Part shown: piece by piece, positions 40,095-59,822 of the stretch
Layout: every line of letters begins with the position of its first letter
Numbering within the stretch: position 1 is the stretch's first letter
NCBI GenBank assembly: GCA_028866995.1
Contig: JAGWHD010000001.1
Coordinates: 247,218 to 311,217, forward strand
From: Microcaldota archaeon
GTDB taxonomy: Archaea; Micrarchaeota; Micrarchaeia; Micrarchaeales; CABMGC01
Direction of reading: 5' to 3'
Length of the DNA: 64,000 nucleotides
The notes under the pieces: generated by a model
Seen by the model: the letters and a program-made list of their open reading frames with translations, nothing else
Databases searched by the model: none
What the model was told of the DNA's origin: nothing
Position numbers and translations under genes: made by a program

Positions 40095-40868
40095 TTGAAT
40101 AAAGATTTAGCAAAAATACAGAATGAACAGCTTGTTGGCTTTCTACAAGCAAAGCTTGCATTAGTCATAGGTGTTATTCTAATCTTCTTAACGTTTATAG
40201 ATAAATTTAACGTAAAAATAGAGATGGACGGAATACCTATAACGCTAAACAACATCGTAGCTGTAGGTTTTATCCTTATGGCCTTCATCTACATAGATGC
40301 CGATAATAAGGCGTATTCAATTTTGTATTTCTTTGGTTACAGAGAGAGAAAGTCTCGAACTATTGAAGGAATTAAAAAGGCTTTAAAGGAGGTATGGAAA
40401 AAGTATATTATGTCAGATAGGAGATCGTCTAACAGAAGAGAGAACTTATATATAACGGATTTTGGACACGAAGTAAATTTTGTCCAAATCCTTGTGATAG
40501 TATCTACACTTCTTGTTGCTCTGAAAAACCCGTTTGAAACCAATACCTTCACATTTGTATCGAATACATTTTTCATAGGTTTTGTTGTCTTAATTATAGC
40601 ATACTATTTCATGTTAGATTTTGGATTTAATAGGAAAAGTAGAAGCTTCCTGTTGATAACGTTCTTAGCTGCTGTGTGTTTTGCAGCTACTATAGGGTTA
40701 GAAATAGGTGTAGGCATAACCATAACTTCAGGCGCTCCGATAGCCAGCATATACGCTGATGCATATATAATCATTGTAGCGGTTGTGGTCTTCTTGGTAC
40801 TTACGAAACCTATTTCCATAGAGTGGATAAGAGCAATTAGGAGAAGACTTGGGGTTGCGGGGATTTGA
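40095..40868 (+). CDS. Hypothetical multi-pass membrane protein in AT-rich island (TTG start)
   Basis: 257 aa, multiple TM segments; 3' end lies inside the tRNA-Trp gene on the opposite strand. Confidence 0.6.
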   Translation: MNKDLAKIQNEQLVGFLQAKLALVIGVILIFLTFIDKFNVKIEMDGIPITLNNIVAVGFILMAFIYIDADNKAYSILYFFGYRERKSRTIEGIKKALKEVWKKYIMSDRRSSNRRENLYITDFGHEVNFVQILVIVSTLLVALKNPFETNTFTFVSNTFFIGFVVLIIAYYFMLDFGFNRKSRSFLLITFLAAVCFAATIGLEIGVGITITSGAPIASIYADAYIIIVAVVVFLVLTKPISIEWIRAIRRRLGVAGI

Positions 40869-40990
40869 ACCCCGACTCGCAGGTTACTTCATATTTATTT
40901 TGCAATTCCAGATCCTAATCATCGCACAATGTGCTCAATTCTAGATAAACATCTGGAGCCTGCTGCGCTGCCAAGTTACGCGACAACCCC
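40850..40990 (-). tRNA. tRNA-Trp(CCA) with 68-nt intron at 37/38 (40885..40952)
   Basis: RC: GGGGTTG...GCAGG CTCCAG|intron|A CCTGC GAGT CGGGG TTCAAAT CCCCG CAACCCC; BHB-like CTCCA/TGAAG central pairing next to the anticodon stem. Confidence 0.92.
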
Positions 40991-55694: not shown

Positions 55695-57467
55695 TTGGCA
55701 GAGTCTGACGAGAGGAGGCGTGCATTCCTCTCGAACGGGATGACATCCGCGCTGGAGCTTGACGGATCGATAGACTGGTTCCCTTGCCCTAGGTTCGACT
55801 CCCCGTCGATATTCTCGGCCATACTTGACAAGGCGAAGGGAGGCTACTTCTCGATGAGGCCAGAGGGAGATTTCAGGCTCTCCTCGCAGTACCTGGGCAA
55901 CAGCATGATGCTGAGGAACCTCTTCGAGACCGACAAGGGCAGGATGGAGGTGGTGGACTTTCTGCCGCTGGGGGTATGCGCCGTGATAAGGACGTTCAAG
56001 TCAGAGATCCCTTTCATAGTGGAGATAAAGCCGGTTTTCCAGTACGGGATGACGAATCCGGGAATAGAGACCAGCGACAAGGGAGTCACGTTCAAGAACG
56101 GGAGCTCGAGGGAGGGGCTCGAGGTCAGCATCAAGGGAGACTATTCAACCATAGACGACGGGGTCTTCAGGGTGAATCCCGGGGAGGGATACGTATTCGC
56201 GCTCTATTCGAAGGACCTCAAGTACGGGCTCTTCAGCAGGGCCGGGGCCGTATATCCGGATCCGTACGAGACGCTTGAAGCAACGCAGAAGTACTGGGAC
56301 GAGCAGCTTGCATCGGCCAGACAGGTTGAGAAGTTCAGGGACGCTTACTACAGGTCCCTTGCGATAGTGCTGGGCCTAATGTACATACCTTCAGGCAGCA
56401 TGATAGCGGCTGCCAGCGCGTCGTTGCCAGAGATAGTAGGCAAGAACAGGAACTGGGACTACAGGTACGTCTGGGTAAGAGACGCAGCGTACGCCGCAGA
56501 GATGCTGGCAAACGTCATGATGCTCTCAAAGTCGAGAAGGGTTCTCAACTTCCTTGTCAGCGTCATAGACCCCTCGCTCAAGAGCTTCGACCACCCGTTC
56601 TATTCGATAGACGGCACGTCGCCGCAGCCGGAGGAGGTGCTGCACTGGCTCAAGGGCCACCAGAATTCGAGGCCTGTCAGGATAGGCAACGAGGCGTTCA
56701 CGCATATGCAGAACGACGTTGAAGGAGCGTTCATGAGCGGCCTTTACGCGTACATAGAGAAGTCCGGGGACATACAGTATGCGAAGGAGAACTGGTGGGC
56801 TGTCGAGGCCATTGCAAGATGGACAAAAGAATCCTGGAAGATGAAGAGCATAAGCCTGTGGGAGGAAAGGGAGGTAACGCAGCATTACGTCCATACAAAG
56901 GTAATGGAGTGGGTCGCGCTGGATAGGGCAGTGAAGATAGGGAGGAAGATAGGGGAGAGCAAGAACCTGGAGGACTGGGCATCAACGGCTGTCGAGATAC
57001 GTGCAGAGGTGATGAAGGAAGGGTTCTCGCAGAAGCTGAACAGCTTCACAAAGTTCTACGGGTCAGAGGATGTCGACTCTTCGTTGCTGACCCTGCCCCT
57101 CTATGGGTTCATAGACGTCAAGGACCCGATGTTCGCCGGCACCCTGCAGATGATAGAGAAGACGCTCGCTGTCGATGACGGACTGCTGATAAGGTACGGA
57201 TCCGACTTCATGGGGAAGGTGGAGCATCCGTTCACGCTACTGTCAGCATGGCTGGCAAGGAACTACATAAGGCTGGGCGACGCAAAGAAGGCGGAGGCGA
57301 TAATAGGCAAGCTGCTCAGCTATGCGAACGACAACGGCCTCATAGCGGAGCACATAGACATGAAATCCAGGCAGCCGAGGGGAAACATACCGCAGCTCTT
57401 CGCGCACGTGGGACTGGTAGAGGCGATAAACGAGCTCAACGACCCTACCCTTTTATTACAGCAATAG
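55695..57467 (+). CDS. Glycoside hydrolase family 15-like (glucoamylase/trehalase type; TTG start)
   Basis: GSIDWFPCPRFDSPSIFSAILD, NRNWDYRYVWVRDAAYA. Confidence 0.9.
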   Translation: MAESDERRRAFLSNGMTSALELDGSIDWFPCPRFDSPSIFSAILDKAKGGYFSMRPEGDFRLSSQYLGNSMMLRNLFETDKGRMEVVDFLPLGVCAVIRTFKSEIPFIVEIKPVFQYGMTNPGIETSDKGVTFKNGSSREGLEVSIKGDYSTIDDGVFRVNPGEGYVFALYSKDLKYGLFSRAGAVYPDPYETLEATQKYWDEQLASARQVEKFRDAYYRSLAIVLGLMYIPSGSMIAAASASLPEIVGKNRNWDYRYVWVRDAAYAAEMLANVMMLSKSRRVLNFLVSVIDPSLKSFDHPFYSIDGTSPQPEEVLHWLKGHQNSRPVRIGNEAFTHMQNDVEGAFMSGLYAYIEKSGDIQYAKENWWAVEAIARWTKESWKMKSISLWEEREVTQHYVHTKVMEWVALDRAVKIGRKIGESKNLEDWASTAVEIRAEVMKEGFSQKLNSFTKFYGSEDVDSSLLTLPLYGFIDVKDPMFAGTLQMIEKTLAVDDGLLIRYGSDFMGKVEHPFTLLSAWLARNYIRLGDAKKAEAIIGKLLSYANDNGLIAEHIDMKSRQPRGNIPQLFAHVGLVEAINELNDPTLLLQQ

Positions 57468-58884
57468 GAACGTTCCTTGAAACGATTGTCGATATTCCCG
57501 AATCCTCGACGACCTTGACGACCTCGTCAACGTCCTTGTACGACCATTCTGCTTCTTCGCTCACCAGCTTCCTGGTCTTTATCCTTATCTCTATGTTCTT
57601 CTTCTTCAGGGACTCGAATGTCCTTGATGCAGGTATCTCCCTTATCGCCTGGTGCCTTGACATGACCCTTCCAGCCCCATGGCACGAGGAACCGAATGTC
57701 TGCTGCATGGACCCTTCTGCTCCGCAGAGCACGTAGCTCGAGGTGCCCATGCTTCCTGGAATCAGCACGGGTTGGCCTGTATCCCTGTACTTCTCAGGTA
57801 TCTCCTGCCTTCCCTTTGCGAACGCCCTTGTAGCGCCCTTCCTGTGCACGAGCAGCTTCCTCCTCTTACCATCGACGACATGCTCCTCTGCCTTCACTAT
57901 GTTGTGCGACAGGTCGTACAGTATCTCCATCTCCAGCGCATCGCTGCTCTGCTCAAATGTGCTAGCGAAGCTCTTCCTTATCGAGTCGGTTATTATCTGC
58001 CTGTTGGTGAACGCGTAGTTGACGGCGGATTTCATGGCGCATAGGTAGTCCAGGGCCTCCTTGCTGCCGATGTGCGCGTAGCTGAGCTCCGGATCCACAA
58101 GCTTTATCTCGTTCTTCCTCTGGTATTCCGCCAGGGTCCTCAGGTAGTCGCTGCATATCTGGTGCCCGAAGCCCCTGGATCCGGTATGAACCATTATCAC
58201 TATCTGGTTTTCCCTAAGGCCGAACCTCTTCGCTATCCTTCCATCGAATATCTTTTCGACCTTCTGCACCTCGAGGAAGTGGTTGCCTGCGCCGAGCGTG
58301 CCCAGCTCGTGCAGCCCTCTCGACTTCGCGTCGTCGCTGACCTTGGATATCTCTGCGCCGTGCATGCAGCCGTTCTCCTCTATGTTCATGAGATCCGACT
58401 CGTTGCCGTATCCCTTCCCTATTATGTACTCGACGCCTTCGTGCGCCACCTTCTCAAGGTCCTTCTGCGTCAGGCCTATGTTGAGCTTGCTCCCGACACC
58501 CGAAGGCACGTTGTGGAAAAGCGCGTCTGCGAGCCTGTTGAGCCTCGGCCTTATGTCCTTCTCCTCGAGATTCGTTTTGACGAGCCTGACGCCGCAGTTT
58601 ATGTCGAACCCCACTGCCCCTGGGGAGACGATGCCCTCGCTGGCGTCGAACGCCATGACCCCGCCTATAGGGAATCCGTATCCCTCATGCCCGTCGGGCA
58701 TCACAAGCACATTGCCGACTAGGCTCGGAAGCGTCGCTGCGTTCGCGGCCTGCTGCAATGTTCTGTCCTTCTTGACCTTCTCTATGAGCGTGTCTGAGGA
58801 ATAGGCGATGACGTCGGTGTTCATGCCCTGCATCGATCCCTTCGGTATCCTGAACCTGTTCTTGTCAATTTTTTCCAGTTCCAT
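57445..58884 (-). CDS. rtcB: RNA-splicing ligase RtcB
   Basis: VMPDGHEGYGFPIGGV, GVGFDINCGVRL-like, HTGSRGFGHQ, SSCHGAGRVMSRHQA; no intein. Confidence 0.95.
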   Translation of the reverse strand: MELEKIDKNRFRIPKGSMQGMNTDVIAYSSDTLIEKVKKDRTLQQAANAATLPSLVGNVLVMPDGHEGYGFPIGGVMAFDASEGIVSPGAVGFDINCGVRLVKTNLEEKDIRPRLNRLADALFHNVPSGVGSKLNIGLTQKDLEKVAHEGVEYIIGKGYGNESDLMNIEENGCMHGAEISKVSDDAKSRGLHELGTLGAGNHFLEVQKVEKIFDGRIAKRFGLRENQIVIMVHTGSRGFGHQICSDYLRTLAEYQRKNEIKLVDPELSYAHIGSKEALDYLCAMKSAVNYAFTNRQIITDSIRKSFASTFEQSSDALEMEILYDLSHNIVKAEEHVVDGKRRKLLVHRKGATRAFAKGRQEIPEKYRDTGQPVLIPGSMGTSSYVLCGAEGSMQQTFGSSCHGAGRVMSRHQAIREIPASRTFESLKKKNIEIRIKTRKLVSEEAEWSYKDVDEVVKVVEDSGISTIVSRNVPIAVIKG

Positions 58885-59000
58885 TTAGACATCTCTTTAA
58901 GGCCGTTTTTCAGATACGGAAGCTATATATATGAGATAAATTACAGAGAATAATAGTTATCTGAAGGATTATAAATAATGTTTGATAAGTAGTATGCTAT

Positions 59001-59098
59001 GCAGGGATGGCGGAGCCTGGTCAAACGCGGCAGACTCAAGATCTGTTGGCTTAGGCCTACGGGAGTTCAAAAACTTTGAACAAATCTCTCTCCCTGCA
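59001..59098 (+). tRNA. tRNA-Leu(CAA) with apparent 13-nt T-loop intron (about 59071..59083)
   Basis: GCAGGGA...GCAGA CTCAAGA TCTGT, long variable arm, GGGAG TTCAA[AAACTTTGAACAA]AT CTCTC TCCCTGC A. Confidence 0.88.
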
Positions 59099-59132
59099 TA
59101 TCATCCTTACAAAGACAAAAAAAGGCGAACGC

Positions 59133-59822
59133 GTGAAGAGGAAGTCAAAACCGAAGAGAGGCAGGGCCGCAAGCAGGCCGAAGAGGGCGGGCAAGGTGCG
59201 CGAGAAGGTCCTTTTTGAGGTTCCTCACTATCCGCAGACAGAGGAGTTCACGAGCTCTGCGGCTTGCGCGATGATGGTTCTCAAGTATCTAAATCCTAAT
59301 TTCAGGCTGAAGAAGGAGCAGGAGTACGACATATGGCAGGAAGCTGTCAACGGAAGCGTGTGGCACGGCTCGAAGTACGGGCTCGCATACGCGCTTGCGA
59401 AGAGAGGGGCAAAGGCCAACATAGTAAGCAACACCAAGGACGAGGGCTACGACAGGAAGCTCGCCGTTTACGAGAACGTCAACCTGGACACGCTCACCGC
59501 ATCTTTCAACGAGATAAGGCAGAAGTCTCAGGACATGGAGATAGGGGAGGACTACGGCAACGCCTCGATAAACTCGGTAAGGAAGACCCTGTCGGGGAAC
59601 CAGATACCGATAGTGCTCATAGACGCGAACGCGATAAATCCTTATCTGGAGTCTTCACCGCACTGGGTCGTAGTCAAGGGATACGACAAGGATGCGTTCT
59701 ACATAAACGATCCCTATTCGGACAGCACCGTGACACTGGATGCAGATGCATTCAAGTCTGCGCTCGGCTATGACAACGACTTCCACATGATAGTCGTAGG
59801 ATCTAAGCCTAGGAAGAGATAG
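59133..59822 (+). CDS. C39-like papain-fold peptidase family protein (GTG start)
   Basis: VPHYPQTEEFTSSAACAMMVLKYL...SSPHWVVVKGYDKDAFYINDP. Confidence 0.75.
   Translation: MKRKSKPKRGRAASRPKRAGKVREKVLFEVPHYPQTEEFTSSAACAMMVLKYLNPNFRLKKEQEYDIWQEAVNGSVWHGSKYGLAYALAKRGAKANIVSNTKDEGYDRKLAVYENVNLDTLTASFNEIRQKSQDMEIGEDYGNASINSVRKTLSGNQIPIVLIDANAINPYLESSPHWVVVKGYDKDAFYINDPYSDSTVTLDADAFKSALGYDNDFHMIVVGSKPRKR

Follow-up and report, generated by a model that had tools for sequence, protein, structure and literature searches.

Results

The window analysed here is a stretch of 64,000 nucleotides (nt) from contig JAGWHD010000001.1 of a Microcaldota archaeon (phylum Micrarchaeota; assembly GCA_028866995.1). 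Our subject is its tRNA-Leu(CAA) gene at 59001-59098 (+), which carries 13 additional nucleotides in the T-loop, very probably an intron removed by splicing. Rfam RF00005 accepts the gene at 42.2 bits (gathering threshold 29) and R1, a covariance model of this lineage built from the spliced tRNA, at 102.7 bits; ARAGORN, run on the window, missed it. The acceptor stem is GCAGGGA/TCCCTGC followed by A73, the D-stem is GCG/CGC, the variable arm is long and the T-stem is GGGAG/CTCTC. The anticodon CAA (59037-59039, +) lies in a 7-nt loop, CTCAAGA. The insert is located not at the canonical tRNA intron position, 37/38, but in the T-loop, which is 20 nt long (TTCAAAAACTTTGAACAAAT), i.e. 7 + 13. Taking it out leaves the canonical cloverleaf of an otherwise complete tRNA.

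Alignment with relatives divides the gene into exon 1 (tRNA positions 1-58; 59001-59070, +), the predicted intron AAACTTTGAACAA at 58/59 (59071-59083, +) and exon 2 (positions 59-73; 59084-59098, +). A sequence-only reading of the window had described a complete tRNA with an insert in its T-arm, and its sequence and coordinates were as we found them. It also held that removing 13 nt restores GGGAG TTCAAAT CTCTC, and TTCAAAT is the loop read in relatives that have no insert. It is also the T-loop of the remaining tRNA-Leu genes in this genome. Another intact tRNA-Leu(CAA), named in that reading as what would make this gene a pseudogene, was absent among the tRNAs that we detected in the genome. 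A putative TATA box, TATAAATA (58970-58977, +), lies some 31 nt before the gene, and a similar TATAAATA stands upstream in the relatives L057, L061, L065 and L067. Scanning for bacterial-type promoters and terminators gave nothing useful.

To follow the gene in other genomes we searched 59 genomes from the family and 89 from the phylum with R1 and read the hits. In the order, with its families f1 and f2, 88 genomes had a readable Leu(CAA) gene, and the counts below refer to these; the 82 sequences with an insert are related and do not represent independent events. An insert was present at the same site in 82 of the 88 (51 in f1, 31 in f2) and missing from 6; six further f1 genomes gave no CAA gene among the hits fetched. 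Insert lengths range from 10 to 21 nt, with a mode of 13, giving a natural series of 79 distinct T-loops. The sequence-only reading had called the insert near the minimum size. It is indeed short, but 13 nt is the commonest length here and inserts of 10-12 nt also occur. The T-loop of L099 (genome G019), TTCAATATTGAATAAAT, has a predicted intron of 10 nt with a G-U pair in its central helix.

Close relatives, found through the RtcB protein encoded next to the tRNA, are metagenome-assembled genomes of Candidatus Micrarchaeota, which marks the genome as that of a micrarchaeon. Six rtcB-linked loci in such genomes all have an insert of 12-16 nt in the same place, and the insert-free 85-nt exons of these loci and of the window align without gaps. 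The nearest relative, L033, has exons identical to those of the window (85/85) and an intron that matches at 10 of 13 positions, with three bases different. The insert sequence drifts outside the splice-motif positions while the exons are conserved.

What does not drift is a pattern of pairing, whose recurrence at one site in 82 genomes is more than chance would produce. The exon strand GTTC (positions 53-56; 59065-59068, +) is complementary to GAAC within the insert (59078-59081, +), and G53-U-U-C56 pairs 4/4 with the corresponding tetramer in all 82 sequences. The tetramer is GAAC in 60, GAGC in 8, GAAU in 7, GGAC in 6 and GGGC in 1; in the 22 variants every departure from GAAC preserves pairing via G-U. 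This central helix is followed by a 3' bulge, AAA in the window (59082-59084, +; predicted cut 59083/59084), which is 3 nt long and ends in A59 in 82/82 (AAA in 77, ACA in 4, UAA in 1). The 5' splice region is also AAA (59069-59071, +; predicted cut 59070/59071), and the first intron base is A or U throughout. The mature T-stem has 5/5 pairs in all 82. Counting pairs in just the first seven sequences gives a consistent picture, although the intron helix varies little among those seven alone.

As the central helix occupies G53, the outer helix must form between positions 49-52 and 60-63, which shifts it by two nucleotides from the mature T-stem, and because the stem is GA/CU-rich both registers are possible. 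The outer helix GGGA/TCTC (59061-59064 with 59085-59088, +) proposed in the sequence-only reading held up: the four shifted pairs form in 80 of the 82 sequences and are present in the predicted fold of the window. The same reading had suggested a bulge-helix-bulge (BHB) geometry with AAA bulged on each side. GTTC and GAAC are complementary and both AAA runs are placed correctly, but the two bulges were not borne out. In the minimum-energy fold AAA 59069-59071 pairs with TTT 59075-59077, extending the hairpin to 7 bp and leaving a single 3-nt 3' bulge. Of six predicted precursor folds, five show that bulge together with the outer helix. The canonical symmetric motif (hBHBh') is not formed, an inner helix of at least 3 bp being available in only 5/82. 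The motif as modelled is of the relaxed HBh'/BHL type, with an outer helix, a 3' bulge and a central helix and no conserved inner helix.

In six relatives the insert is missing and the T-loop has its normal 7 nt. Three (G002, G046 and G053) belong to genus g3, from which the insert is precisely absent in these genomes, while their congener G029 has it; the other three (G065, G074 and G084) belong to f2. The gene downstream of the tRNA is still adjacent in G002, G046, G053, G065 and G084, giving a syntenic locus for five of the six. The loop is UUCAAAU in five, the very product predicted for splicing at 58/59, and UUCGAAU in G065. The distribution by itself suggests that the intron was lost several times rather than being ancestrally absent from these genomes.

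Among the hits read from beyond the order, a thin sample, none had an insert in the T-loop. Plain CAA genes occur there in G100, G118 (f11) and G086 (f7), and in G091 and G111 an insert lies in the anticodon loop instead. We considered whether the T-stem sequence is unique to intron-bearing genes and rejected this, as isoacceptors without an intron also have GAGAG/CTCTC.

The genome encodes an epsilon2-type splicing endonuclease (EndA). Its only match to PF01974 lies in a 385-residue frame that aligns nearly end to end with the ARMAN-2 epsilon2 EndA, 4fz2 (E 2.1e-141). The counterparts of the catalytic residues Y236, H251 and K282 and of the specificity-loop (ASL) residues Y160 and K161, all named in PMC12397907, are identical to those of 4fz2, giving a complete catalytic triad and ASL Tyr-Lys pair. 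Joint gain of the intron and epsilon2 EndA was not supported: frames of about 390 residues, in a comparison judged by frame length alone, were seen phylum-wide, including in families where no T-loop intron was seen.

Across 57445-59822 of the window the order is rtcB, transcribed divergently, then tRNA-Leu(CAA), then a gene for a C39-peptidase-like protein (PF11814/PF13529). The first, at 57445-58884 (-), encodes the tRNA-splicing ligase (PF01139, E=3.6e-165). The C39-peptidase-like gene keeps its place next to the tRNA throughout f1 and at the majority of f2 loci, rtcB in f1 alone. Adjacency to rtcB was rejected as a functional requirement, as f2 retains the intron with no rtcB seen within about 1.5 kb. 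In L035 and L069-L071 the similarity to rtcB is interrupted around residue 95, as it would be by an intein or some other insertion: the L035 match begins at residue 96 and those of L069-L071 span only 88-125 residues.

Two other tRNAs were noted in passing. Positions 40850-40990 (-) of the window hold a tRNA with a CCA anticodon (Trp) and a long insert after the anticodon, which ARAGORN also failed to call. In archaea, introns of tRNA-Trp often contain a C/D sRNA (PMC4090602). ARAGORN calls L025 (G000:C11:434694-434781) an intron-bearing Gln(CTG), but its sequence resembles a tRNA-Arg(TCT) whose anticodon is followed by a short intron.

Discussion

We are confident in reading the 13 nt as an archaeal tRNA intron, excised from the non-canonical position 58/59, as the sequence-only reading had proposed in outline. 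Excision is supported by the conserved site, by an intron that drifts while its pairing is kept, by the conserved exons, by the intron-less syntenic alleles, by the broad-specificity epsilon2 EndA in the genome and by the failure to detect a second Leu(CAA) gene.

Several points weigh against this. The predicted fold of the window places the 5' site within the 7-bp hairpin. Cleavage, ligation and the exact cut in tRNA-Leu(CAA) are all deduced from sequences, and trials of an epsilon2 enzyme on a T-loop intron did not turn up in the literature we consulted. With a draft assembly of 55 contigs, and an RF00005 search that failed to recover some of the tRNAs expected, there is a slight chance that a second CAA gene went undetected.

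The best surviving alternative keeps excision and moves the junction to 57/58 or 59/60. The sequence-only reading had called the cut ambiguous within the A runs and, for the window sequence, it is, since several cut pairs there yield an identical product; PMC4090602, too, lists 59/60 among its intron positions. Conservation of the 4-bp helix and of the 3-nt bulge nevertheless sets the cut at 58/59. A 58/59 junction returns UUCAAAU in every case, including relatives with AA|U at the 5' site and AC|A or UA|A at the 3' site, where the geometry best places the cut; cutting at 59/60 would yield UUCAAUU in the AAU relatives. We therefore regard a different junction as improbable.

It is much less likely still that the insert is retained, leaving a mature tRNA with an enlarged 20-nt T-loop. 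In favour of this, a whole order tolerates the insert, which can fold into a hairpin. Yet only the splice-motif positions of the insert hold steady, while the rest varies in sequence and in length (10-21 nt). The T-loop is of the usual 7 nt where the insert is missing, and reads TTCAAAT in the genome's remaining tRNA-Leu genes. Contacts between the T-loop and D-loop are, moreover, required for the L-shape of tRNA. That the gene is a pseudogene or an assembly or sequencing artefact, for which the silence of ARAGORN might speak, is barely credible given that 82 species-level genomes have an insert at this site, with the exons conserved and five T-stem pairs in each, and given the TATA-like element upstream and no other CAA gene among the tRNAs found.

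Excision at 58/59 probably proceeds as follows. In the precursor G53-U-U-C56 would pair with the intron GAAC and GGGA (49-52) with UCUC (60-63). The 3' splice site would then lie in a 3-nt bulge, AA|A, and the 5' site in a loop that contains AA|A as well. The epsilon2 endonuclease would cut both sites and RtcB would join nucleotides 58 and 59. The T-stem would then shift by two nucleotides into the mature register, GGGAG/CUCUC, closing the normal UUCAAAU loop.

Non-canonical archaeal tRNA introns, including those at T-arm sites, are well known (PMC4090602, PMC8450103, PMC12397907), and the novelty here is modest; what stands out is how clean the comparative record is. The original 2011 survey of ARMAN tRNAs may already list this intron. 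Known introns with BHB or relaxed HBh'/hBH motifs, for example at 56/57 and 59/60, share the T-arm location, the exon-intron central helix, the 3-nt bulge and the short length (PMC4090602). Compared with the Thermoproteales examples of that study, this intron occurs in a different phylum and in one isoacceptor across an order, at a site, 58/59, that needs a register-shifted T-stem, and it has no inner helix. The lengths reported there are 11-129 nt, and the 10-nt intron of G019 would fall below that minimum. Both epsilon2 and (alpha-beta)2 enzymes cleave relaxed HBh'/BHL motifs (PMC6379350, PMC12397907). The disrupted tRNAs of ARMAN-1 and ARMAN-2 (Micrarchaeum), cleaved by epsilon2 EndA, come from the same phylum and are cut by the same type of enzyme, and the substrates tested include a relaxed (BHL) motif, as here (PMC4033280, PMC12397907). 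In Thermofilum pendens, permuted tRNAs are likewise joined at a BHB splicing junction within the T-loop, at 59/60, though from permuted gene halves, whereas here the gene order is normal (PMC3218864).

It seems rather likely that a T-loop intron at 58/59 in a single tRNA species has been inherited vertically throughout the order, with register-shifted splicing, repeated precise losses and members as short as 10 nt. The intron explains why ARAGORN missed tRNA-Leu(CAA) here, and probably why it would do so in much of the order. The series of 79 T-loops, with the intron-less alleles, offers natural substrates for defining the minimal structural needs of the epsilon2 splicing endonuclease, and illustrates how a non-canonical tRNA intron can persist throughout an order and yet, it appears, be lost several times within it.
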